64,000 nt of DNA from Bacteroidota bacterium (GCA_026709065.1 JAPOTS010000047.1:1-64000), one strand, 5' to 3'; counted from the first letter of the stretch, positions 4,167-45,269 are shown. Notes: a model not told the origin generated them from the letters alone. A program made the numbers and translations.

Positions 4167-6215
4167 ATGAGTGATAACCAAGTTAGGCAGAAATTACTCA
4201 GTGTTGCAGAGATTATTGCAAATGCACAGACCCACCCTGCCACATTGCAGCCCCCTCTTCATAAGGATATTGAACCACTGGTTCAGAGGGGGCTAGTTAA
4301 GATAGAATTTGATAAAATATCGTTTTCCTCAGATGAGCTACTTGCCACTTGGATACCTCAATATTGCGCAATCCAGATATCTAATGAGTGGAGCGATCTT
4401 AATGTGACTGCCAGAAAATTTCTTCGGGCTTATGATCTGTTCCGTAAATTAGGATTGACAGAAAAATCAATTGCGGTGCTGTTCTTATCAATTGAGAAAG
4501 ATTGTTCTAAAAATATATTGATTCGTTTAGAAGAAGCCGCACTTCTAATGATAAAGGATCCACAATCCGAATTACCTTTAAGTTCAATCTACCTAAAATT
4601 CTGTAGTGTAATACCTCAATTAGATTATACTTCCATAGATCTTGTAAATCATTTAGGACCAGTTTTGGAAGCAAAAGAGGACTACCTGTTCCCGAGAGAA
4701 CTTTATGAATCAATTGAGCGATGGGCTAGCCAGTCTCAAGAAAAAGCAGAGTCATTGTTGTCCACCTGTTTAGAGCAACCACAAAACAGAACGGTTGAAT
4801 TAGCCACCTATGCTCTCATTTCTCTATCTAAATTTGACCATGAATCAGCCCACAGAAAAGCTATAGAGTTGACAAAAAAAGAACGTCTGTCTCTGCAACG
4901 AGTTGGTACTATGGCTTTATCTAGATTTAGTTACGATATCCAAGTGCATGAGAAAAAAATTAGCGATACCATTAATCGCTTTGAAGAGCTTTGTCATAAT
5001 AATGACGAGATTCTTTTGTCCACACTTTGTAGAGCCTATGTATTTCTCTTGTATAATTTACCGGAGAGTAAGCATCTCGTAAGAGTTCAAGAGAGACTTT
5101 TTTACTTGGCATCACTCAAAAAAATAAAGATCCAACACGTTCTATCAAAAGTACTATTTCATCACTCAAACAAGTTTGGTGATTCTGATTGGTTTTGGAA
5201 TGTTACAGATCATCTCGCAGACATACCCGCTGATCATAAATTTATTCTTGATGAGCTAGATTGGGCTATGTATAGCCTCGCCAAAACTTATCCCGAACGG
5301 GTCCTGAGATTTATTGAAAATGTTGTTCTTAGTGAATCATATGGAGATATTAATCAAATTAATTCACTTCCCAATCTCTATAAACATACATTAACTCAAC
5401 TCATTGATAAGCATTTATCAGTTCTTGAATCGAAAATGACGCGATGGTTCGCATCAAAATCCTCAAGATTACATTTTGCGGCAGCCGACTTAGTGAAGTA
5501 CTTCATGACGGAAAATTCCATTCAATGTGATAATAAAATTCTATTTGATTCTTCGGAGTTAAACCAGCTTGATGAGGGAGATATAGAACGCTTAATCTTT
5601 GCTATTATTGGCTATGTAGAAGATTACAATGCACTAACATCCCTATTGATTTCGGTACTTTCACGAAAAGAAGTGAGTAATCATATTTGCGAGATGATAG
5701 TTAGCATTCTTGAGCATGTAATCCTATATAATAAGCCCAGTTTAGGAAGAAAGTATCTGAGGGATTTAATTGAAAATTCTGACATCTCGGGATCTACTCG
5801 ACAGTCTATTACTGATGCAATTGGTCGATCTGATAGTTATTATAATTTCTTAGGAGGAAGACCTAACCTAAAGGAGTTCATTCCACCACCTAATCGGGCT
5901 CATCGCTTCTATGTAGAACGCCAAAAAATGATTAATCGTTTGCATCAGGAAAACATGTTCAATGACTCGAGACTACTTAGTTTAATTCCTACGATTCCAG
6001 TGAAATACGGGAGAGCATCATTTTCCTCAGACGACACTGGCAAATCCTCAAAGGTATCTTTTAACACTATTCGTTCTGAGTATGAGATCCCTAGAGAACT
6101 TATCATAAATCCTCTGAGGCATCAAATAAAACGAATAAATTGGCGATTTATGGCTGTGAATGGAAATCCACTCAACTCGTCAAGTTCAGCTAACGAAAAT
6201 AGCGAAAAAAATTAG
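4167..6215 (+). CDS. Large hypothetical protein, probably alpha-helical (HEAT/TPR-like) repeats
   Basis: 682-aa ORF of successive Leu-rich helical segments (e.g. RTVELATYALISLSKFDHESAHRKAIELTKKERLSLQRVGTMALSRF). It is followed after 23 nt by the next ORF. Confidence 0.7.
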   Translation: MSDNQVRQKLLSVAEIIANAQTHPATLQPPLHKDIEPLVQRGLVKIEFDKISFSSDELLATWIPQYCAIQISNEWSDLNVTARKFLRAYDLFRKLGLTEKSIAVLFLSIEKDCSKNILIRLEEAALLMIKDPQSELPLSSIYLKFCSVIPQLDYTSIDLVNHLGPVLEAKEDYLFPRELYESIERWASQSQEKAESLLSTCLEQPQNRTVELATYALISLSKFDHESAHRKAIELTKKERLSLQRVGTMALSRFSYDIQVHEKKISDTINRFEELCHNNDEILLSTLCRAYVFLLYNLPESKHLVRVQERLFYLASLKKIKIQHVLSKVLFHHSNKFGDSDWFWNVTDHLADIPADHKFILDELDWAMYSLAKTYPERVLRFIENVVLSESYGDINQINSLPNLYKHTLTQLIDKHLSVLESKMTRWFASKSSRLHFAAADLVKYFMTENSIQCDNKILFDSSELNQLDEGDIERLIFAIIGYVEDYNALTSLLISVLSRKEVSNHICEMIVSILEHVILYNKPSLGRKYLRDLIENSDISGSTRQSITDAIGRSDSYYNFLGGRPNLKEFIPPPNRAHRFYVERQKMINRLHQENMFNDSRLLSLIPTIPVKYGRASFSSDDTGKSSKVSFNTIRSEYEIPRELIINPLRHQIKRINWRFMAVNGNPLNSSSSANENSEKN

Positions 6216-6238
6216 TAACCAAAAGGACACTGCAAATC

Positions 6239-7942
6239 ATGAAGCTAGTACTTAGAGATTACTTGGCTTCAGTAAGCGAGTCAGGTGAGCTGGATGTACT
6301 TGTTGCTGACCTACTTCTTAACATGAAAATAGAACCCCTTAGTCAACCACAGAGAGGGGTAAGACAAGATGGTGTTGATATTGCAGCAGTAGGTGAAGAT
6401 CCAACTGATAATATAAGAAAATTATTTTTGATCACAATCAAGGCTGGAGACATCACTCGAAGTAATTGGAATGGTAACAATCCTACTGATATTCGGCCAT
6501 CGCTTGATGAAATAAAAGATGTTTACCTCAGTAGCCGAGTACATGTTTCTCACCAAGAACTACCAAAGAAAATCATTCTATGCTGTGGGGGAATATTGAA
6601 ACAGAATGTAGACCCTAACTGGAAAGGATATGTCAATACAAGTCGTATTTCTGGACATGTAGAGTATACCCTTTGGACGGGTGAGACCTTAGCACTTCTT
6701 ATTGAGGAGTATTTCATGGATGAGTACTTGTTTCCGATTAAACATAAGAGCTTGATGCGAAAATCTCTTGCTCTGCTTGACCAGAATGAGGATGAACCAG
6801 TCTTTTTCTATGGATTAATTGATCAAATTTTATTTGAGAGTAACTTACCAAGGTTTCCATCTCCGCAATCATATAGAAAGCATCATAAGGTACTACGACT
6901 TTTGCATCTATGTTTAGATGTGTTATTCAGATGGGCTCAGGATGTAGAAAATATTCGCCCAGCATTACTTTCGGCTGAGCGGACGTTACTTAAAACATGG
7001 GATTTTTTGCGTTATCATAATCTCTTGGAAGATACTAGATCCCAGAGGTTTTTCATTCAACTGTACGAAAAGTATATTGAGATTTCATTAATCTATGCTG
7101 AACGAATTAGCCCAGCATGTTTAATTGAAGACGGACTTGCTTATCTTTCCAATGATGCAGAATCTATAGAGTACCCACTCCGAGTATATGAAGTAATTGG
7201 GTTTCTAAGTGTTTTAGGAATCAGTCAGTTTTACAATACTCCAGAAACAGTTAAGGATGATAGTGGCTCTAATAATCCTAAGGCTGTTGATCTTCTATTG
7301 GAGTTACTCAAGAACAATTCAGTTTCCAATTTGCCGAGATATGATGGTCATGGAATAGAAATCGCATCTGCCCTACTACTTCTCAAACAGACCAATCATG
7401 AAGATGATGCCTTGAAATGGCTAAGAGAACTATATCTCAGTATCACCACTGCTTATCAAATAGGAAATTATTTTCCTGTTTCATCGAATGACTACGAAGA
7501 TCTCATTGATATGGAGTTTGGGCAGAATCAACCCTATACACATCTCATGAATATCTCAACAATTTTACCAATGATTGCAGAATGGTATACTATAATTGGT
7601 AATAAGCAGGAATACATTAAATTTAGAAAAACAGTCAATCATTGTTGCAAAGAAATTAATCTTCAAATGTGGTATCCAGACACTAACACAGAATCAATGA
7701 TTTACAGTGGATTTGCCGCATATCAAACAGGAAATATGTGTATATCCATTTCTCTCCCAGAGGATTTAGAAATATTAAGAAAGACTATTCAAAGAACTTT
7801 TAAAGAACATTTATCAGTTTCTCAACTCTCTTGTACCACACATCAATTTCCTGTACTCAGCCTGATTGCCAGTCGTCATTACCGCACACCATTAATTCCA
7901 TATACTTGGCAACGGCTACTCTTTAAGGACTCTGATCATTGA
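6239..7942 (+). CDS. Hypothetical protein with a predicted restriction-endonuclease-like (PD-(D/E)XK-type) N-terminus
   Basis: 567-aa ORF. Segment RQDGVDIAAVGEDPTDNIRKLFLITIKAGDI fits a D...(x)IK nuclease core, followed by an IKDVYL / KKIILCCGGIL fold-like alternation. Purine-rich AAAAGGA lies upstream of the ATG. Confidence 0.65.
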   Translation: MKLVLRDYLASVSESGELDVLVADLLLNMKIEPLSQPQRGVRQDGVDIAAVGEDPTDNIRKLFLITIKAGDITRSNWNGNNPTDIRPSLDEIKDVYLSSRVHVSHQELPKKIILCCGGILKQNVDPNWKGYVNTSRISGHVEYTLWTGETLALLIEEYFMDEYLFPIKHKSLMRKSLALLDQNEDEPVFFYGLIDQILFESNLPRFPSPQSYRKHHKVLRLLHLCLDVLFRWAQDVENIRPALLSAERTLLKTWDFLRYHNLLEDTRSQRFFIQLYEKYIEISLIYAERISPACLIEDGLAYLSNDAESIEYPLRVYEVIGFLSVLGISQFYNTPETVKDDSGSNNPKAVDLLLELLKNNSVSNLPRYDGHGIEIASALLLLKQTNHEDDALKWLRELYLSITTAYQIGNYFPVSSNDYEDLIDMEFGQNQPYTHLMNISTILPMIAEWYTIIGNKQEYIKFRKTVNHCCKEINLQMWYPDTNTESMIYSGFAAYQTGNMCISISLPEDLEILRKTIQRTFKEHLSVSQLSCTTHQFPVLSLIASRHYRTPLIPYTWQRLLFKDSDH

Positions 7943-14117: not shown

Positions 14118-17100
14118 TTGATCAAACTAATGTTGAATTTTATTAATCAATTCTTTGGCGACAAAAATCAGCGTGAAATCAACCGCACCTATGAGCCGAT
14201 TGTTGAACTGATTCACCAAGCTACTCCCCGAATTAAAGAGCTTACAGATGACCAATTACGTGGGTGTACTCAGGAATTTCGTGAGCAAATTAAAAATGCC
14301 CTTACAGAAATTGAGGAGCGTAAGCAAGAAATCTACGATACGCTGAAGCTTGGATTTGCCGATGATGAGAAAAAAGAATCCCTAACCTTAGAAGATCGAC
14401 AAGACTTTTTTGAAGAGTTAGATGAGTTGGAAGACGAATGGCTTGATGTGGCCGAGGAAACGCTTAACCAGATTCTTCCAGAGGCATTTGCGGTTGTAAA
14501 AGAAGTCTGTATTAGGATGACGGAAAAAGGATCCCTAAAAGTTCGCGCGACCGATCATGATCATGCCATTCGCAAGAAACGTAACTATCCAGACATCCAA
14601 GGATCATATGCTATTTGGACCAATGAATGGGAGGCAGGCGGAACGGCCATAAAATGGGAAATGATTCCCTATGATGTACAGTTGATCGGAGGAACAGTCC
14701 TCCATCTCGGTAATATCGCCGAAATGAAGACGGGTGAAGGGAAAACATTGGTTGCTGTGGCCCCTGTATACTTGAATGCACTCCTTGGCCGAGGAGTCCA
14801 TCTCATAACAGTGAATCCCTATTTAGCACGGCGAGATGCCGAGTGGATGGGGCCTATCTTTGAATTTTTAGGATTAACGGTTGATGTCATTGATGAATAT
14901 GATGCCCATTCTGAGGATCGACGCATGGCTTATCATGCAGATATCACCTACGGAACCAACAACGAATTTGGATTTGATTATCTACGTGATAATTCCTTTG
15001 TGGTTGAACCCAATCAATTAGTTCAACGAGGTCATCATTACGCAATCGTTGACGAGGTTGATTCGGTTCTTGTTGATGAAGCACGAACCCCGCTCATCAT
15101 CAGCGGCCCTGTCCCTCAGGCAGCAAAGAGTCGTTTTGATGAACTCAAGCCCTCGGTTGATCGCTTGGTCAATGCTCAAAAGCGATTAGTGGCAGGCTTT
15201 GTTGCTGAGGCGGATAAAAAATTAAAGGAGCGTGACCGTGCCTTAGAGCGTGGTGAGGAGAAAGAAGCAAAAGATCTGGAGACGGATGCAGGGTTAGCCC
15301 TACTACGTGCTTCAAGAGGATTTCCCCGAAATAAGCGTCTCATCAAACTTCTTCAAGAACCCGGCATTGAGCAACTGAAACGCAAAACTGAATACTTTTA
15401 TTTACAGGATAATGCGAAGCGCATGCCGATCGTAGATGATGAAATGTACTATGCGCTTGATGAAAAACAGCATGCCTTAGAACCCACTGATCAGGGGCGA
15501 GAATTCATTGCAAAAGCGGCAGGAGAGGATGTCAATTTGTTTATCCTTCCAGATATTGGTGAGGAAACTGCCCGCATGAAACGAGAATATGAAGGACATA
15601 AGCAAAAATTATATGACTCTATTCGTGATCGAGAAGATTTGTCTGACCAAAAGCGTGAGCACAAACTTCAGAATGATTTAAGAGTTTTGAAAAACACCCT
15701 TGATGAAGAGACTAGAAAGCTCTATGGAACCTATTCAGACCGTGCAGAGAGGCTCCATGCCATTGAGCAACTTCTAAAAGCGTATACTCTGTATGAGCGT
15801 GATACAGAGTATATCGTTCAAGATGGCAAAGTACAGATCGTTGATACTCATACGGGGAGGGTTCTATCAGGACGTCGCTATTCCGATGGGCTCCATCAGG
15901 CCATTGAGGCCAAAGAAGGCGTCAAAGTTCAGGCCGCAACTCAGACCTATGCTACGATTACACTTCAAAACTACTTCCGTATGTACAGCAAACTCGCTGG
16001 CATGACTGGAACAGCCGAGACGGAGGCAGAAGAGTTTCATAAGATCTATAAGATGGATGTCGTGGTTGTTCCAACCAATGAACCCATTGCCCGTGAAGAC
16101 TTGGAAGATTTGATCTATAGATCCAAACGAGATAAGTATGCTGCTGTCATTGATAAAATTGAGGACTATCATGACCGAGGACAGCCTGTTTTAGTTGGAA
16201 CGACATCTGTTGAAGTCTCTGAAACGCTTAGCCGCATGCTCAAGCGTGCTCGTATTCAGCACAATGTGCTGAATGCTAAGCGAGATAGGGCCATGCAAGA
16301 ATCTTTGATTGTCGCTGAGGCTGGCAAGCGAGGAGCAGTCACGATAGCGACCAATATGGCTGGGCGAGGAACAGATATCAAGCTCGGTTCAGGAATCATC
16401 GAATTAGGAGGATTAGCCATAATCGGCACTGAACGTCACGAAAGTCGCCGAATCGATCTTCAGCTCAGGGGGCGCTCTGGTCGACAAGGAGATCCAGGAG
16501 AAAGTCAATTTTATATATCTCTTGAAGATGATCTCATGCGACTCTTTGGCCCTGACCGTGTAGCCGCTGTCATGGATCGACTCAAACTTGAAGAAGGAGC
16601 CGTCATCAGCCATTCAATGGTAACCAAGAGTATTGAGCGGGCCCAAAAGAAAGTGGAACAGAATAACTTTGCAATTCGGAAACGACAACTTGAATATGAT
16701 GATGTCTTGAATGCCCAACGCGAAGTGATCTATGATCGCCGGATGCATGCGCTTAAAGGGGAGCGATTTCGTGGTGAGATTCTTGATATGCTCTATAAAT
16801 TGACCGCACGACTGGTTGAGCGCTATCATGGAGAAGGTGAAATGGATGAGTTACGTGATGAATTCCGCCGACTCTTATCCTTTGACTATGATATTGATCG
16901 GCAGAGGTTCTTTGATCTTGGTGATGACGGAGTCATTGAGGATGCCTTCCAAAAAGCATCCCAGTTCTATGAGCAAAAACGGTTAGCCTTAGCAGCGCCA
17001 TTTTTTGAGAGTATGAAGGGGATCGCTGAAAGTAATTCAAAGACCAAGCCTCAAAAAGCATTCGTGGACTTTTCGGATGGGCATCGCCGACTACGCACGG

Positions 17101-17603
17101 TCGTTAGAATTCAAGATGTTGTGGACTCCGAAGGACAGGAAATCAATGATAGACTTGAACGAACGGCAATGCTTTCATTTATTGATGAGTACTGGACCGA
17201 GCATTTACGCTCGTTGGATGAAGTCAAAGAAGGCATTGGGCTTCGGGCCTATGGTCAACGCGATCCTTTGGTGGAATATAAGATGGAGGCGTTCCGTCTA
17301 TTCTCCGATGTGATTGAGCAGATTGGCGAAAATGTTGTCACATTTGTATTTAGAGCAGGGCCTATGGTAGAAAAGCGAGGCAATCCGTCAGCGCAGAAAA
17401 GTACGATGGATCCAAAGCGTGCTCAAGAAAGTCAACGGTCAGCGCCTCCTTCATTTGGAATCGCGGGGTCCAACTCCAACGGAGCTGAGCGTGATCCGAG
17501 TGCCAAACGACAACCCGTTCTTGCGGGAGATCATATCGGTAGAAATTCACCATGCCCCTGCGGGAGCGGTAAGAAATATAAACATTGTTGCGGCCGGAAA
17601 TAA
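14118..17603 (+). CDS. secA: Preprotein translocase ATPase SecA
   Basis: 1161 aa. MKTGEGKTLVAVAPVYLNAL Walker A, DEVDSVLVDEARTPLIISGP, TNMAGRGTDIKLG, and C-terminal SEC-C motif CPCGSGKKYKHCCG. The start may be the ATG at 14130. Confidence 0.97.
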   Translation: MIKLMLNFINQFFGDKNQREINRTYEPIVELIHQATPRIKELTDDQLRGCTQEFREQIKNALTEIEERKQEIYDTLKLGFADDEKKESLTLEDRQDFFEELDELEDEWLDVAEETLNQILPEAFAVVKEVCIRMTEKGSLKVRATDHDHAIRKKRNYPDIQGSYAIWTNEWEAGGTAIKWEMIPYDVQLIGGTVLHLGNIAEMKTGEGKTLVAVAPVYLNALLGRGVHLITVNPYLARRDAEWMGPIFEFLGLTVDVIDEYDAHSEDRRMAYHADITYGTNNEFGFDYLRDNSFVVEPNQLVQRGHHYAIVDEVDSVLVDEARTPLIISGPVPQAAKSRFDELKPSVDRLVNAQKRLVAGFVAEADKKLKERDRALERGEEKEAKDLETDAGLALLRASRGFPRNKRLIKLLQEPGIEQLKRKTEYFYLQDNAKRMPIVDDEMYYALDEKQHALEPTDQGREFIAKAAGEDVNLFILPDIGEETARMKREYEGHKQKLYDSIRDREDLSDQKREHKLQNDLRVLKNTLDEETRKLYGTYSDRAERLHAIEQLLKAYTLYERDTEYIVQDGKVQIVDTHTGRVLSGRRYSDGLHQAIEAKEGVKVQAATQTYATITLQNYFRMYSKLAGMTGTAETEAEEFHKIYKMDVVVVPTNEPIAREDLEDLIYRSKRDKYAAVIDKIEDYHDRGQPVLVGTTSVEVSETLSRMLKRARIQHNVLNAKRDRAMQESLIVAEAGKRGAVTIATNMAGRGTDIKLGSGIIELGGLAIIGTERHESRRIDLQLRGRSGRQGDPGESQFYISLEDDLMRLFGPDRVAAVMDRLKLEEGAVISHSMVTKSIERAQKKVEQNNFAIRKRQLEYDDVLNAQREVIYDRRMHALKGERFRGEILDMLYKLTARLVERYHGEGEMDELRDEFRRLLSFDYDIDRQRFFDLGDDGVIEDAFQKASQFYEQKRLALAAPFFESMKGIAESNSKTKPQKAFVDFSDGHRRLRTVVRIQDVVDSEGQEINDRLERTAMLSFIDEYWTEHLRSLDEVKEGIGLRAYGQRDPLVEYKMEAFRLFSDVIEQIGENVVTFVFRAGPMVEKRGNPSAQKSTMDPKRAQESQRSAPPSFGIAGSNSNGAERDPSAKRQPVLAGDHIGRNSPCPCGSGKKYKHCCGRK

Positions 17604-33799: not shown

Positions 33800-35035
33800 T
33801 CATTCTGAATCATTGAAGAGCTTCAGCTGTGCTTGATCAAAAAAAGATTCACTCTGAGGTTGGGGTATGGGTTGAGTCTTTTTCGACAGCGCTACTGGTT
33901 TTTTGACAGGATTGGGCTGGGTGTATTTTTTATAAGCTTTTCCAATCATATCTAGGATGGCCTGAGTATTATCACGAGATTTTCCGTCTGGAACCGTATT
34001 GAGGCGGCTATTCCATTTTTTGTATTCTGATCTGAGGTGTTTCCTAGTCGTTACAAGATCCCAATTACGGTCAAGCCCTAAGAATTCATACGATTCACTC
34101 TCAACGATTTTTGTGATATCAAGGTGCATGATCAGATAATCTCGGATATTTTCAAATACCGTAGGTTCAAGTGCTGAGTAATGTGCAATATCATTCAGGG
34201 CAATGAACTGATTGTTATCTGCAATTCCATTGCATGTGATTACTTCAAGACAAAGGTCCAAAGTATCACTCCATTCATGAGGTGATGCCATATACCTGAG
34301 ACTCTTAATGAGAGCAGTCATATTTAATTTTTTAGCCCGAGCCCGTTGTACAGCACGGCGCATCATGCCTTGGTATGCGGTTTTTCTCTTCTGGTCTGTC
34401 ATACCATCACATCTATTTTTAGCATTATCTCGCCAGTGATGAACTCGACTCTTAATAATCTTTCGTTCCAAGGCGGACAGCGATCCATCAGCCATGGCTA
34501 CGGCCATAGCCACCTTTAAAATGATGGATTGTGTGCGCCTTTTCTGCTTCTCAATATAAACATAGCCCCAGTCCAATATCATCGGATCAAGATCAATCTC
34601 ACCTGTCCATAAGACACCTTCAAAATTTTCCACAACCTGACCTTTTTCTATGACAGGATCATAAGCAATATCAACGAGCCTGACAATGGCTTTTATTTTC
34701 CTTTCACCTCCATAAGGAGGGACTAATACAGTTTGTGGGATGATGCCTATGGTTTTCCATTTAGTAATTTTCTTTTTCAACCCACCTATCGCATCAGTGG
34801 AGAGTCGTAATTCATAGACCATAGAATGATCTTCTTGAAATAATTCTTCCGTGGATAGAATCGGATGAACCTCATCATCATCACAATCGAACAGAGAGAT
34901 AGACAACTCAAGCTCTTTATTATATGCGGTCTGTGGTAAATCACCAATGATATCAATCAAAGTCGTTGGAAGATTTTCTAGGGTTATTTCAGAGGTGCGA
35001 AGCTTTAGGGGAGTTTTTTTCCTAGCTACTGGCAT
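33800..35035 (-). CDS. TerB-like protein with degenerate J-like C-terminus
   Basis: 411 aa. LKVAMAVAMADGSLSALERKIIKSRV resembles TerB. The C-terminal YEFLGLDRNWDLVTTRKHLRSEYKKWNSRLN...QAILDMIGKAYKKY resembles a J domain without HPD. Confidence 0.65.
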   Translation of the reverse strand: MPVARKKTPLKLRTSEITLENLPTTLIDIIGDLPQTAYNKELELSISLFDCDDDEVHPILSTEELFQEDHSMVYELRLSTDAIGGLKKKITKWKTIGIIPQTVLVPPYGGERKIKAIVRLVDIAYDPVIEKGQVVENFEGVLWTGEIDLDPMILDWGYVYIEKQKRRTQSIILKVAMAVAMADGSLSALERKIIKSRVHHWRDNAKNRCDGMTDQKRKTAYQGMMRRAVQRARAKKLNMTALIKSLRYMASPHEWSDTLDLCLEVITCNGIADNNQFIALNDIAHYSALEPTVFENIRDYLIMHLDITKIVESESYEFLGLDRNWDLVTTRKHLRSEYKKWNSRLNTVPDGKSRDNTQAILDMIGKAYKKYTQPNPVKKPVALSKKTQPIPQPQSESFFDQAQLKLFNDSE

Positions 35036-35257
35036 GAGTGCGTATAATCAGATGAATTTCAATAGAGTGATTTACAGAATAATACGAAAGTCCATGATTG
35101 ATAAACAATTTAAGCAGGTATAATCTTGTTACGATTCATGTAATTTGGAAAGAATTTAACCATAGATATCACCTGACCACCGGTCAATCAAGATAGGTAG
35201 CTTGACATTGCATGATTCTGAATCTCGTTGTGTGATGACGACCCATGATTTAAATAC

Positions 35258-36760
35258 TTAGTCATCGCGAGGTCCACCCTTCATGAGATCAACGGTGATT
35301 TCTTTCTTCTTTCCAGAATCAGTATCTTCAAAGTAACAATGCATTATTTGATTGATATCATATTTGTAGGTCACTTGAATTTCTTGTCCAGGTGGTCGGC
35401 CAGGGGGTAATTCAAGACTTCCTTCTGCGATGATTCGAACAAATTTTGGATCAAAAGTTTCTTCCTCGTGATCACATTCAGTGATTGTACAATTAATTTC
35501 AGTCTGATTGGGGGCAACCGTATGATACTTTTCGGTCATTGAGCAAGGAATTGGAGTTCCCTTTTCAATGATGATTGAATTGATCAACCGGCGTTCCCCC
35601 ATGCCAAAATTATCATCAATCGCTCTTGTCCCAAAATGTTTATTTGCTACATCTTGAACACTCATTTCAGCGGCTGAGGCCTGTTGCAACTTAGTGAGTA
35701 CATCTGTATCACTACGATGACCTGCATACAACGCAGCTCCAAGCGCTACCACCTCATCAACATTAGCAATACTCAACGGATCTTGACCGAATAAATGTTG
35801 GACAGTTTGCTGAATAATTGGCATTCTCGTACTTCCACCTGCTAAGATGACACCATCTAAACGATGGGGGTCAACATTTCCTCCCTCAAGAGCATTTTCA
35901 CAGCAGAGATACACTTGTGTCACAAAGTTAGAGATTTTTGCTTCAAATTCTTCCCTCGTCACTTCAATCACCTGTCCCTTCACAAAAACGCTCACTTTTT
36001 CTCTACGAGATAGAGAGTGTTTCAAATCTTGGATTCTGCGCAGATCAAACCCTTCATGATTCATATGCTCTTCTGAAACGATTTCCCCAGTGAGCCCTTC
36101 GTATTTTTCTTTCACAACCGTCTGCAATGCCTCATCAAAATCAACACCTCCAAGTCGTGCAATGCCATCACTCCAAATCACTTCTACGGATTTTCCATCA
36201 AACTCGGCTATGGTAATATCAAAAGTCCCTCCCCCCAAATCAAATACAGCATATATGCCCGCTTGACTGAGTTTACCAGAATAGGCATAATACATGGCAG
36301 CCGCAGTAGGTTCATTGATGATATTGGCAAGTTCCAAACCAGCAGATTCGGCTGCATTGATGGTCGCTTGTCTGGCCTCATTGCTAAAATTTGCAGGAAC
36401 GGTAATGACCACGGGGGCGAGAGGGCCAACTGCTTGTTCAGCATAAGATGCCAAATTTTTCAATACATGGCTACTTAGTTCTACAGGGTTCAAGGAATGG
36501 GGTCCAATTGGATACTGCTTTGATGTCCCCATTTCGCGTTTAAAGCGAGCCGCTGATGATTTATCTTCAATGCCATAATCAGCGGACCATTGCCCCCATG
36601 CATCAACACCAACGCGCCATTCATCATTAATCAGTGCAACACAGGAGGGGAGGAGATACTTTCCTTCGGGATCAGGAATCATCACTGGCCTCCCAAATTC
36701 ATCAAATTGCGCTACAGCTGAGTATGTTGTTCCTAAATCAATTCCGATGACTGAACTCAT
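35258..36760 (-). CDS. Hsp70/DnaK-family protein, short form
   Basis: MSSVIGIDLGTTYSAVAQF, VPANFSNEARQATINAAESAGLELANIINEPTAAAMYYAY, FDLGGGTFDITI and LAGGSTRMPIIQ. It ends at 500 aa after a beta-type substrate-domain-like region, with no long helical lid. Confidence 0.92.
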   Translation of the reverse strand: MSSVIGIDLGTTYSAVAQFDEFGRPVMIPDPEGKYLLPSCVALINDEWRVGVDAWGQWSADYGIEDKSSAARFKREMGTSKQYPIGPHSLNPVELSSHVLKNLASYAEQAVGPLAPVVITVPANFSNEARQATINAAESAGLELANIINEPTAAAMYYAYSGKLSQAGIYAVFDLGGGTFDITIAEFDGKSVEVIWSDGIARLGGVDFDEALQTVVKEKYEGLTGEIVSEEHMNHEGFDLRRIQDLKHSLSRREKVSVFVKGQVIEVTREEFEAKISNFVTQVYLCCENALEGGNVDPHRLDGVILAGGSTRMPIIQQTVQHLFGQDPLSIANVDEVVALGAALYAGHRSDTDVLTKLQQASAAEMSVQDVANKHFGTRAIDDNFGMGERRLINSIIIEKGTPIPCSMTEKYHTVAPNQTEINCTITECDHEEETFDPKFVRIIAEGSLELPPGRPPGQEIQVTYKYDINQIMHCYFEDTDSGKKKEITVDLMKGGPRDD

Positions 36761-36761
36761 A

Positions 36762-38018
36762 TCAATTATGTTTGTGATTGAATCTATAAATTGCCACTCT
36801 GGCAGGAATTAAGACTTCTTTTTTTTGACCACCTTTCATGTAATAACCATCCTCTAGCACTTCTGCGATCTTACAATCGTCCTCTTCAATATCCGTGTCC
36901 AAAATTTTAGGGTAGTCCGAAACTCCAAAGGCAGTGCGATAATCGCTTCCGATATCGGGGTTATATATATGGACATCACATTCAAGGAGAGCGTCCTCTA
37001 AGAGGGAATGTATGGATTCAAGTTGAGGCGGTGAATCATCTGTCTGTTGCAAAAAATATTGGACGGCTTGGTATATCCGAATGAAGCGGGACACAAATTT
37101 ACGATAAATTGCGTTATCGTACCCCTTTTTGAGGCGTTTAATTTCTTGATCTCGTTCATCTAATGCATCACGCAGACTTTTGATAGATGAGGCAAAGTCT
37201 TTAGTCGCTTCGTTTTGATTGAGGCCTTGCTGTGCTATATCAGTATTTGAATTTGCGATTTCAATTAAATAATTTATTCGTTGAGCAATAAAGACAAGTT
37301 GGTCTGCATCAAGATCATTATCATTGGATTTTGAAGCTCTGGATCGTTTATATTGATTAAAGGCATTGATGCTTACAAGACATCCTCCAATAACCGCCAA
37401 CACCGTCAGTATAACAACCAGCCAGATAGGCAGTGATACAAATTGATCTGAAAGATCGAAAGATCTGGGAAACGTTTGACTTTCATGTGGCGCACGTAAA
37501 TTGGTCATTGTTGAGAGTAGCGAAATCTTGTTTAGTCTGGATTGTACATGATCACTCTCTAATCCAGTGAAACGCTTTTCAGATACAGAGAAACCTTTCA
37601 AATCTTGATGTAAGGTATGAACATCTTCAATGGTACTGTGCAAAGTAATATGGTTTAACTGCAATGTATGTAGCTTTCGCAAGCGACTCAACTCTGGAGC
37701 CCAACTATGTTTATTTGTAAATAAAATTAATGAGTAAATCTGATCATCATTAACGGTGAGTCCGAACCATTGATCTACATCGGGTCCTTTCATTTTGAGA
37801 TTTAAATCCAATGTTTCAAGATTCATCTGATTAATGCCACCCTTGGGCTGATCGATTGTTTGATGAGCATACCATTTGAACTCTGGATATACGGCTGTTT
37901 TACCCTGAACTTGGGCATGAGGGCAGATAATTAAGCAGGCGAAAAAAACTGATCGTAACAACCGTAGGTTTCGGTGATATGTATTTTTCTCACTCACGAA
38001 TCTTCTACTTAATCTCAT
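36762..38018 (-). CDS. Membrane-anchored GrpE-like nucleotide exchange factor candidate
   Basis: 418 aa. Signal/TM segments (FVSLPIWLVVILTVLAVIGGCLVSINAF), a coiled coil (LRDALDERDQEIKRLKKGYD), and a C-terminus LLECDVHIYNPDIGSDYRTAFG...CKIAEVLEDGYYMKGGQKKEVLIPARVAIYRF that resembles the GrpE C-terminal domain. Abuts the Hsp70 ORF. Confidence 0.65.
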   Translation of the reverse strand: MRLSRRFVSEKNTYHRNLRLLRSVFFACLIICPHAQVQGKTAVYPEFKWYAHQTIDQPKGGINQMNLETLDLNLKMKGPDVDQWFGLTVNDDQIYSLILFTNKHSWAPELSRLRKLHTLQLNHITLHSTIEDVHTLHQDLKGFSVSEKRFTGLESDHVQSRLNKISLLSTMTNLRAPHESQTFPRSFDLSDQFVSLPIWLVVILTVLAVIGGCLVSINAFNQYKRSRASKSNDNDLDADQLVFIAQRINYLIEIANSNTDIAQQGLNQNEATKDFASSIKSLRDALDERDQEIKRLKKGYDNAIYRKFVSRFIRIYQAVQYFLQQTDDSPPQLESIHSLLEDALLECDVHIYNPDIGSDYRTAFGVSDYPKILDTDIEEDDCKIAEVLEDGYYMKGGQKKEVLIPARVAIYRFNHKHN

Positions 38019-38211: not shown

Positions 38212-39003
38212 CTAAGACAGGGTGTGAATTGTGCTGTAAAGTTTCTTCATTATTTCAATCATATCTGGGGAGAGAAATTTCTTAACCTGAGTGATCAGAT
38301 CATCAACAATACCTCCATGCAAGGCTTCTGCAATTGATCCAGCAATTGCGGCTTGGGTGTCAGCATCCCCTCCCAAAGAAATCGCATTCAAAATTGCATC
38401 TTCAAAACTTTCTGATTCAAGTGCGCAGATGATCGCCTCGGAAACACTTCCCTGACAGGTGACATTAAAGGAATATTTAGGACGGATTTGGTCAACGGTT
38501 CTACTCAGACAGTAATAATAAGTATCCTCAATGATCTTTCGTATGTCCTCGGATTTCTCTCCGTTCAATGCAAGCCAAATCGCATGAGTAGTCGCTCGGG
38601 CACCCCGAACCCCTTCGGGGTGGTTGTGAGTGATATTAGTGACCAAGTCGCAGGCTTCCAAGGCTTTCTCAAGGGGTTCCTTTTGATTTAGGTATGCAGC
38701 AGGTGATACTCTCATTGCGGCTCCATTCCCATAGCTCCGATACGCTCCCATGTCTGGATTATGAATCCACTTCCTAAAATTACCACCATATCCTTTTCCA
38801 GGGTGACTCCTACACCATTGACGTAGCATTTCGGAGGCCGAGGGTAAATGATCAGAAAGAAGTATATCTGCGACTGCCGCAGTGCATACTGAATCGTCGG
38901 TATACTTGCAGTTTGCTTTGAATAAATTTATGTCTTTAGTTTTGATTGGCTTCCATTCGTAGATTGAACCAGCAACGTCTCCAATAATTGCCCCGTATGA
39001 CAT
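38212..39003 (-). CDS. ADP-ribosylglycohydrolase family protein
   Basis: GAIIGDVAGSIYE, KYTDDSVCTAAVADILL and ISLGGDADTQAAIAGSIAEALHG. Confidence 0.9.
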   Translation of the reverse strand: MSYGAIIGDVAGSIYEWKPIKTKDINLFKANCKYTDDSVCTAAVADILLSDHLPSASEMLRQWCRSHPGKGYGGNFRKWIHNPDMGAYRSYGNGAAMRVSPAAYLNQKEPLEKALEACDLVTNITHNHPEGVRGARATTHAIWLALNGEKSEDIRKIIEDTYYYCLSRTVDQIRPKYSFNVTCQGSVSEAIICALESESFEDAILNAISLGGDADTQAAIAGSIAEALHGGIVDDLITQVKKFLSPDMIEIMKKLYSTIHTLS

Positions 39004-42896: not shown

Positions 42897-44651
42897 TTAA
42901 GTCCCCTCATTAGCATTTCTATATTCAATGAGCGCTGCTTGACCAAGGATGCTCAATATGGTGATTGAGACTTCAACGCCATACGAATCTACTAAATTAA
43001 GAGGCTTACCAAAACGAAAGTGCACAGGTTGATGCCTTCCCCCTTCAATCGCTACATTACTCGCATATAGATACATCCTATCTTGAGTATCAAGAATTGG
43101 GTTAATCTGACCATAGAGTCCCGGAATTCGTCCTATACCCTCTGGGAAGATCACGGCACCGCCATCGTTTACAGGAGTCAAGTCAATCACTAAGCCGCCT
43201 TGTCGTGGAATCCAATCTTGAATTAATTTACCACTATATCCCTTAGCTGCTACATATACTGTCATCGGAAGATGGGTTGAATGCAGGTCTAACTCCGTTT
43301 CACCAGATTCATCTGTGGTAGATCGCTTCCATGTATGATTTGGGAATAGAACCAAAATATCAACCCCTAAGATTGGCTCCATACCAGAATGAACTTTAAT
43401 TGAAGCCCCATTAGGTGTAAGCTCAAATCTTGCGGCAGGAATGGTCAAAAACAAATTGGTCTGATCAACGAGTTCATATTTTGGGTTAATTCCACAAGTT
43501 TCACGAGTTGATTTCATGATTAGGGATACACCATCACCTCGCTTTTCCATGAGAGCTCTTCGGTGCTGAGAACCTGGAATATCACCAACAGGGTATCGTG
43601 TGAAGATAGATGCTAGTGTCTCATTGCGAGTAGATTGCTTCAAATTCATGGATTCAATGGTCATCCCATTGGGAAGATGTCCTGGTGAATCAATCTCCAA
43701 ACGATCCTTAAACATTGATAACCGGATGCTACTGGAAAAAATGGAGTAATCACGATGAATGACCGCATTAACAATGGCTTCAAAAATGGCAATCATACTG
43801 TACTGCGGCAAATCTTCACGCGCTGGTGTTTTACGAGAAGCAACCCGCATATTACGAGCTACAAATCTACAACCATCAAAAATTTGTTGATACAGTGAAC
43901 CTTGAATTTCTTGGGCATCCAACTGACCTGAGGCACGATCTTTACCTCTGTAAAGAGTTGCTAATATCATTGCATGGGGAAACCAATCCTGGGGGGAGTT
44001 CGTGCACAGGAGAATCCCAGCCACAGTAGCTCTAAATGCACCCGCTTCATCTTCTGCAAGAAGCCCTTGATTCATAAGGGACTTGAGCGGATCTGTAGTA
44101 CCCTCAGAACTGAGTAGCGGCTCCCATAACCGCTCCGACAACGTTTCAAAACCAGTATCAGGAACTATAGTTTGATCAAACCAAAGGTATCGACTTTGTG
44201 TACGAATTTGAGCAAGACGTAATTTTTCATCCACGCTGAGTTGTCGCGTACTATTACCAACTCGAATAAATGCACGCCCGGAACGCTCATGAGCTGAAGT
44301 ACCTCTGGGAATCTCTACCAGCAAGAACACTTTTCCATCGAGCACTCTGTGATAAAAGCTAATTCGGATAGGTGGATCCACAGCATTGGTACACACATCT
44401 GTCAATATACCATCTAGATGTGCTACCTGTTTGTACGATAAGCCTTGAAGTAGACCATCATCGGTAACTCCACTGAGAAGAATGCCGCCATTGGAGTTAG
44501 CGAATGCGATGATCTCATCTGCGAGGTCGTCTCGTTTAGGACTCACGGGCCGATCCCCTTTACAACTAATTTGCTTGAACTCCCAGCGTTGATCCTCGCC
44601 TAATAATAAGCGCTGGCGTAGCTCATCATTAGTGATCTCATCATATAGCAT
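42897..44651 (-). CDS. AlbA_2 (Schlafen/RecG-like) ATP-binding protein with extended C-terminus
   Basis: RWEFKQISCKGDRP...DLADEIIAFANSNGGILLSGVTDDG...GRAFIRVGNSTRQLS, and HATPase-like IFEAIVNAVIHRDYSIFSSSIRLSMFKDRLEIDSPG. Likely ATG at 44651. Confidence 0.85.
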   Translation of the reverse strand: MLYDEITNDELRQRLLLGEDQRWEFKQISCKGDRPVSPKRDDLADEIIAFANSNGGILLSGVTDDGLLQGLSYKQVAHLDGILTDVCTNAVDPPIRISFYHRVLDGKVFLLVEIPRGTSAHERSGRAFIRVGNSTRQLSVDEKLRLAQIRTQSRYLWFDQTIVPDTGFETLSERLWEPLLSSEGTTDPLKSLMNQGLLAEDEAGAFRATVAGILLCTNSPQDWFPHAMILATLYRGKDRASGQLDAQEIQGSLYQQIFDGCRFVARNMRVASRKTPAREDLPQYSMIAIFEAIVNAVIHRDYSIFSSSIRLSMFKDRLEIDSPGHLPNGMTIESMNLKQSTRNETLASIFTRYPVGDIPGSQHRRALMEKRGDGVSLIMKSTRETCGINPKYELVDQTNLFLTIPAARFELTPNGASIKVHSGMEPILGVDILVLFPNHTWKRSTTDESGETELDLHSTHLPMTVYVAAKGYSGKLIQDWIPRQGGLVIDLTPVNDGGAVIFPEGIGRIPGLYGQINPILDTQDRMYLYASNVAIEGGRHQPVHFRFGKPLNLVDSYGVEVSITILSILGQAALIEYRNANEGT

Positions 44652-45269
44652 AATTGTATCTTCCAAGTTAATCCAACATAAATGGTTCAAACATCCAATT
44701 GTCACTAAATAAATCGGACTTGTTTAAACAAGCAACTATAGTTCAGGAAACCCTAAAATACAACAATCATAAAGTAAGCTACTCTATGAGTGAATAGCTA
44801 CCATTATTGGAAGATGATCAGAACCATACCTTTAATTCTTCACAGAAACCATGCTTGATAGCTATGGACAATGAATGATCAGACACAAATGATATCGCAA
44901 GTACACAAGGGTAGTAAATCAGCTATCAAAGATCATCTCACCTGTAAGAGTTGTGTATGCGCTTTCCAGTAGTCTACAAAATGGTTATTGACTCATTCTG
45001 AGTTTCTTTCCGTATAGGCGTATCCGCTTACAAAGGACATGAGAGTCCGTATCACCAAAAGTATGGTGAGAATTCCAAGTTCTTGAACGTATCGTATTAT
45101 GGTAAGCATACGTTTGAAACAACCCCAACAACCCTCCGCGATGTAATCCATATTGTTATTCCTACTTCAAAAATATGGCTGATTGAGCAAGGATATAATT
45201 CAACTTTCTGGCGTTTTGGTCAGACTGAATTACTTTAAAAGGTCAATCAATGATAACTGAATCGGAGAT

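Follow-up and report, generated by a model that had tools for sequence, protein, structure and literature searches.

A set of three consecutive genes for altered partners of an Hsp70 chaperone system was analysed in a 64,000-nucleotide stretch of DNA from a Bacteroidota bacterium (GCA_026709065.1 JAPOTS010000047.1:1-64000), hereafter the window, which is part of contig C4 of a 3.34 Mb genome assembled in 139 contigs. The genes, designated A, B and C in the order in which they are read on the minus strand, encode a membrane-anchored GrpE-like protein, an Hsp70 devoid of the helical lid and a TerB-J-like protein, respectively (Table 1), and all three open reading frames (ORFs) are intact. The TGA of A is separated from the ATG of B by 1 nt, and a gap of 222 bp lies between B and C. 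The gene positions and the A-B junction of the original prediction, a model's reading of the same DNA, were reproduced, and its proposal that the three genes form one system was borne out in other genomes, where the A-B spacing varies from -23 to +9 nt in the seven systems with both ends available and C comes after B wherever the contig continues; the co-occurrence of A, B and C is not by chance. The ordinary DnaK (contig C49), GrpE and DnaJ (both contig C63) are also present in the genome and, therefore, the A-B-C cassette is additional to them.

Table 1. Features of the A-B-C cassette in window coordinates (LRR, leucine-rich repeat; TM, transmembrane; NBD, nucleotide-binding domain; SBDbeta, beta part of the substrate-binding domain)
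Feature	Position	Strand	Remarks
Gene A, membrane-anchored GrpE-like protein, 418 aa	36762..38018	(-)	shortened member of the LRR-TM-coiled coil-GrpE-like family
A ectodomain remnant, residues 40-197	37428..37901	(-)	aligns with the second LRR block of relatives; first block absent
A TM segment, residues 199-217	37368..37424	(-)	one strong TM segment by hydropathy; K/R-rich residues follow
A coiled coil and GrpE-like region, residues 270-413	36780..37211	(-)	end motif IAEVLExGY...EVLIPARVAIYRF
Gene B, lidless Hsp70, 500 aa	35258..36760	(-)	NBD and SBDbeta only
Codon for Asn146 of B	36323..36325	(-)	position of DnaK Arg167, contact site of the HPD aspartate in DnaK
Gene C, DjlA-like TerB-J-like protein, 411 aa	33800..35035	(-)	no TM segment
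C TerB-like region, residues 160-310	34106..34558	(-)	matches the TerB part of Bacteroidota DjlA-like TerB-J proteins, 1.9e-8 to 4.1e-7
C J-like region, residues 314-372	33920..34096	(-)	KWNSRLN in place of HPD at 33998-34018
QLKLF, residues 403-407 of C	33815..33829	(-)	fits the QLxLF consensus; at the end of a P/Q/K-rich linker

The product of B is a member of the Hsp70 family (PF00012, Pfam E 1.8e-74, profile positions 1-505 of 599), with the NBD carrying the DLGTT and phosphate motifs and followed by SBDbeta. In the alignment with the genome's own DnaK, the protein ends directly after SBDbeta, which upholds the predicted lidless state at 500 aa. A segment of lobe IB is missing, the loop of lobe IIB is shorter by ten residues, and the linker VLLLDV of DnaK reads MSVQDV. 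Arg167 of DnaK, which contacts, together with Gln378, the aspartate of the HPD motif of DnaJ (PMC8215388), is replaced by N, Y or H in 9/9 orthologs of B and is retained in the genome's own DnaK. Thus, B carries none of the helical lid, the VLLLDV linker, Arg167 and the lobe-IIB GrpE signature that characterize DnaK, nor the alpha domain of HscC and HscA, and it scores 264.5 bits against the NCBIfam equivalog of HscA, the cut-off of which is 708.55. PADLOC returned a weak PDC-M61B match for B.

The relatives of A are proteins of 590-716 aa in which an N-terminal hydrophobic segment and two plant-type LRR blocks are followed by one TM helix, K/R-rich on its inner side, and then by a coiled coil and the GrpE-like end, i.e., the signal peptide, the LRR repeats and the single TM helix of an LRR receptor-like protein are all found in them. 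The LRRs were matched by Pfam in six of the eight A members, the window copy not being among them, and the A profile matched the ectodomains of LRR receptor kinases in the PDB. In comparison with the relatives, about half of the ectodomain is missing from the window copy, with the TM segment kept and the recognisable LRRs gone, and ligand binding may be changed or absent in this copy. The C-terminus is predicted to be cytoplasmic by the K/R-rich flank of the TM segment. One ortholog exceeded the Pfam cut-off of the GrpE profile (PF01025), with 26.9 bits against 25.8 over profile positions 8-163 of 165; GrpE matches were obtained in 3/8 A members and sub-threshold ones in others, that of the window copy being sub-threshold. 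Together with the colinear end motif IAEVLExGY...EVLIPARVAIY, these matches point to a GrpE-like domain of strongly divergent fold. The AlphaFold model of the cytoplasmic part, built from two sequences only, has a pLDDT (predicted local distance difference test) of 50 and, at this low confidence, a helix-helix-beta order in line with the order of elements in GrpE; a PDB profile search with A4, an alignment derived from A, returned coiled coils only. A subtilase-like protein is encoded beside the cassette site in the genomes G006 (L023 3264-6170) and G003 (L135 6322-9252), and that of G006 bears C-terminal LRRs of the A type, a possible source of the LRR block.

For C, the predicted TerB-like protein with a J-like end lacking HPD was recovered as well. 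The TerB profile was matched by 9/10 C members (best 1.1e-9), and Bacteroidota TerB-J proteins, which match the DnaJ profiles as well as the TerB part of C, are colinear with C through the J region. HPD is replaced by KWN[SG]RLN in all ten C copies aligned, and no C member matched the Pfam DnaJ profile. The PDB profile search with C found TerB at E 0.28 only; weak matches to calcineurin B and NOS in this search were taken as spurious. The AlphaFold model of the TerB-J part (also two sequences only) has a pLDDT of 63, with the J region folded as helix-loop-helix at about 80-90. Both HPD in C and Arg167 in B are lost in every B-C pair examined. However, in the operon of a Rhodococcus plasmid (described below) the Hsp70 keeps Arg167 in spite of its HPD-less J-like protein and, therefore, the paired loss is suggestive rather than obligatory.

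The C-terminus QL[DEK]LF is found in five C proteins, the preceding linkers of which share little sequence or length, and among 523 long frames the QLxLF C-termini belong to C proteins only. QLxLF is the highest-affinity consensus for binding to the beta clamp (PMC11139829), and the tail of C, a linear motif in a flexible region, could be a ligand of the clamp (DnaN). DnaE of the window's genome has no QLxLF and, therefore, offers no local positive control for the motif. In the tandem pairs of C genes, the second C (L024 10012-11259; L022 9322-10686) has the QLxLF tail and the first does not, possibly as a division of labour.

The A-type proteins were found in 7/115 genomes of the order and the C-type proteins in 6/115, all in one family. 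The search for A in 251 genomes of the class returned the same 7 genomes; in a sample of 397 genomes of the phylum there was no A outside the family, and C was represented there by weak TerB-region matches only. A search for C in genome contigs gave one matching record, 'Rhodothermales bacterium'. Neither A nor C of the window had a match in the plasmids searched, where full-length A attracted LRR-only matches and B generic Hsp70s, and no cassette match was obtained in the viral contigs searched. A second tandem C is present in G002 and G007, with a like pattern in G006 across two contig ends; the match to the first C gene of G006 is split between two contig termini (L027 1-1640, L023 1-780), perhaps by insertion or an assembly break. 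Between the close genomes G006 and G007 the nonsynonymous divergence (dN) amounts to 0.044 in the ectodomain of A, 0.020 in its TM segment and cytoplasmic part, 0.004 in B and 0.027 in C', the value given for A as such being 0.051. All ratios to the synonymous divergence (dN/dS) are <1, which indicates purifying selection; the Hsp70 core changes slowly and its partners faster.

In the window and in G006, G007 and G008, the cassette occupies a slot flanked on one side by a DsbA-like or M16 peptidase gene and on the other by an SDR/CBM9/Gfo-Idh block. In G009, about 110 bp separate the M16 gene from the SDR gene and the slot is empty, as it also is in G002, G003, G004, G005 and G010, the cassette of G002 being located elsewhere, beside RNase H and ObgE-type genes. 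According to PADLOC, the same block is adjoined by Olokun in G010 and by the candidate defence gene PDC-S20 in G002, while the second copies of the cassette lie near type II restriction-modification genes (contig C27 of the window's genome) or near an HmaA/DrmD-like (SNF2) helicase and an AAA ATPase (G008); these are associations only. PADLOC assigned no family to A and C of the window and gave a weak SngA match for one relative of C. In this way, the LRR ectodomain of the relatives and the shortened A of the window, the paired loss of Arg167, the QLxLF tail, the variable site and the 222-bp B-C gap were added to the features noticed by the original prediction.

Other genes of the window were annotated in passing. 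An ADP-ribosylglycohydrolase (38212-39003, Pfam 2.9e-35) adjoins the cassette and was not seen beside the other copies inspected. The Olokun pair is represented by OloA (4167-6215) and OloB (6239-7942), within 4167-7942 (PADLOC 1.5e-61 and 1.6e-146); a large ORF at 14118-17603 has a weak C-terminal PDC-S12 match, and a Schlafen AlbA_2 and RecG-type HATPase_c_4 protein (42897-44705) matches weakly the Argonaute-associated PADLOC profiles.

Several known systems resemble the cassette in part. DjlA of E. coli is a TerB-J protein of the membrane and a cochaperone of DnaK; via DnaK and GrpE it activates the Rcs relay of envelope stress (PMC11709261). C has the same order of TerB and a C-terminal domain of J type, J-like in C, and would share with DjlA a membrane-linked control of Hsp70; unlike DjlA, C has neither its own TM segment nor HPD, carries an extra N-terminal region and is encoded with a private Hsp70, the anchor being on the GrpE-like protein. 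HscC with DjlB/DjlC, presumed to function at the plasma membrane (PMC8215388), resembles B in being a dedicated Hsp70 whose lobe IIB loop is shortened and whose partners are membrane-located, whereas it keeps the alpha domain, has ordinary J-protein partners and has no GrpE-like partner. Compared with GrpE itself, A is predicted, at low confidence, to have a helical region followed by a C-terminal beta region, and one member passes the Pfam profile, but it is fused to a TM segment and an LRR ectodomain, strongly divergent, and paired with an Hsp70 devoid of the GrpE signature. Plant LRR receptor kinases have the signal peptide, the ectodomain of the same repeat type and the single TM helix of the A family, though with a kinase in place of the GrpE-like cytoplasmic part. 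Conflict neighbourhoods of GAP1-N2 with HSP70, GrpE and DnaJ have been published (PMC7159879), and such accessory operons (GAP1-N2; Rhodococcus and Nostoc plasmids) also combine an extra Hsp70, GrpE and a J-like protein in one operon, while differing by a separate GrpE, no LRR, no TerB seen, and GTPase, TPR or FtsK partners. The Rhodococcus plasmid operon (L149 4601-8207) encodes a small membrane protein, a lidless Hsp70 (510 aa), a J-TPR protein with WTRKQN in place of HPD, GrpE and then FtsK/SpoIIIE. No linked GAP1-N2 GTPase was recognised among the annotated immediate neighbours of the cassette, no GTPase profile having been searched, and no named LRR-GrpE system was found in the open-access papers of the literature search.

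The cassette is interpreted here, with a probability of about one half, as an envelope-anchored receptor-chaperone switch, most likely for defence or envelope stress. For complex formation, signalling direction, clamp binding and biological output we infer the following scheme. A would be a dimeric receptor, whose LRR ectodomain outside the inner membrane would bind a ligand or a surface partner, and whose single helix and coiled coil would relay the state to the cytoplasmic GrpE-like domain; the latter would keep the lidless Hsp70 at the membrane and control its nucleotide or client state. C would act as the matching cochaperone or adaptor with a re-evolved J-like surface replacing the HPD-Arg167 contact, and through the QLxLF tail of five C copies the complex could be linked to the beta clamp, i.e., to replicating DNA. 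The cassette as a whole would be accessory, gained and lost at the variable chromosomal site. The switch is supported by the conserved A-B-C order with the near-overlapping A and B and by the LRRs, signal peptide and TM helix of the relatives; by the one ortholog above the GrpE cut-off, the colinearity of C with DjlA-like TerB-J proteins and the paired loss of HPD and R167; by the patchy distribution, the occupied and empty slots, the defence-gene neighbours and the faster change of A and C' than of B; and by the ordinary DnaK/GrpE/DnaJ that make the cassette extra, the limitation of the QLxLF C-terminus to C and the precedent of DjlA and Rcs. A narrower version, in which a new class of receptor controls its private lidless Hsp70 by means of the GrpE-like domain fused to it, and a J-like partner, re-wired by the loss of both HPD and Arg167, links the receptor to the replication clamp, is held as rather doubtful.

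A number of observations weigh against the switch. The GrpE and J folds of A and C are divergent and their models poor (pLDDT 50 and 63), Foldseek returned nothing meaningful for these low-confidence models in the PDB, and profile-profile comparison by hhalign gave no significant match among the local alignments of A4, GrpE, J and TerB; with local GrpE and DnaJ hidden Markov models the real sequences all fell in the top 10% of the shuffled ones, none scoring above the best shuffle. The second copy in the window's genome (contig C27) has B and C, with A only as a relic, a stop-containing fragment (L007 393-524) upstream of the B-C pair, methyltransferase-like frames lying between. The Olokun pair of the window is away from the cassette, whose defence-gene neighbours are an association only. 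Both the GrpE-signature segment of lobe IIB and the cleft salt-bridge positions K55/R56 are missing from B, as from HscA and HscC; the latter two, devoid of the signature, apparently work without GrpE (PMC8215388), so A may tether B rather than exchange its nucleotide. Accordingly, of the membrane-tethered exchange factor initially proposed the membrane anchor stands, nucleotide exchange by A on B is doubtful, and the missing signature speaks more for a tether or a new interface than for exchange of the classical kind.

The same HscC-like traits of B, the missing signature and salt-bridge residues, would suit a membrane housekeeping or stress chaperone, in which B would fold or remodel proteins of the envelope or the membrane, A would only anchor it by LRRs bound to the cell wall or to partners at the surface, and client delivery would fall to C, in the manner proposed for the tail-anchored DjlB/DjlC with HscC at the plasma membrane. 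The DsbA-like protein and M16 peptidase at the site would fit such a role, but they persist in genomes without the cassette and, therefore, are not functionally tied to it; the patchy presence and the variable insertion site point to an accessory role, and the QLxLF tail has no part in such a function. This explanation is held as unlikely. The window copy might also be a decaying relic, a receptor minus half its ectodomain within a cassette that no longer functions here, given that A has no first LRR block and no LRR match left and that decay is met elsewhere, in the A fragment with stops at C27 and the split C match of G006; with three intact ORFs, intact motifs of B and C, and 65% (A cytoplasmic part) and 78% (B) identity to G008, such decay appears improbable.

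An anti-phage or conflict system, which overlaps with the receptor-chaperone switch and names its output, is a plausible alternative at less than even odds. Infection would be sensed through the replisome (QLxLF on C) or the envelope (LRR), and the Hsp70 assembly would trigger the response. Olokun and PDC-S20 at the same site in congeners, the restriction-modification or HmaA/DrmD-like genes beside other copies, the lidless Hsp70, HPD-less J-like protein and GrpE of the Rhodococcus operon, the GAP1-N2 neighbourhoods, and the requirement of DnaJ for phage sensing by bNACHT25 (PMC12169576) speak for it. However, no effector enzyme is found within the cassette, A and C have no convincing defence-family match, and the viral contigs and plasmids searched did not contain the cassette. 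The dedicated defence or stress role, also suggested originally, we infer from genomic location only, as an association.

Receptors signal through kinases, cyclases, proteases and NTPases. If the receptor-chaperone switch is true, a receptor with a cochaperone domain as its cytoplasmic output would add chaperone control to these known outputs, and the cassette would provide a natural test of an Hsp70 working without the lid and without the HPD-Arg167 chemistry, perhaps with a link to the clamp. It would also extend the growing tie between chaperones and bacterial immunity.

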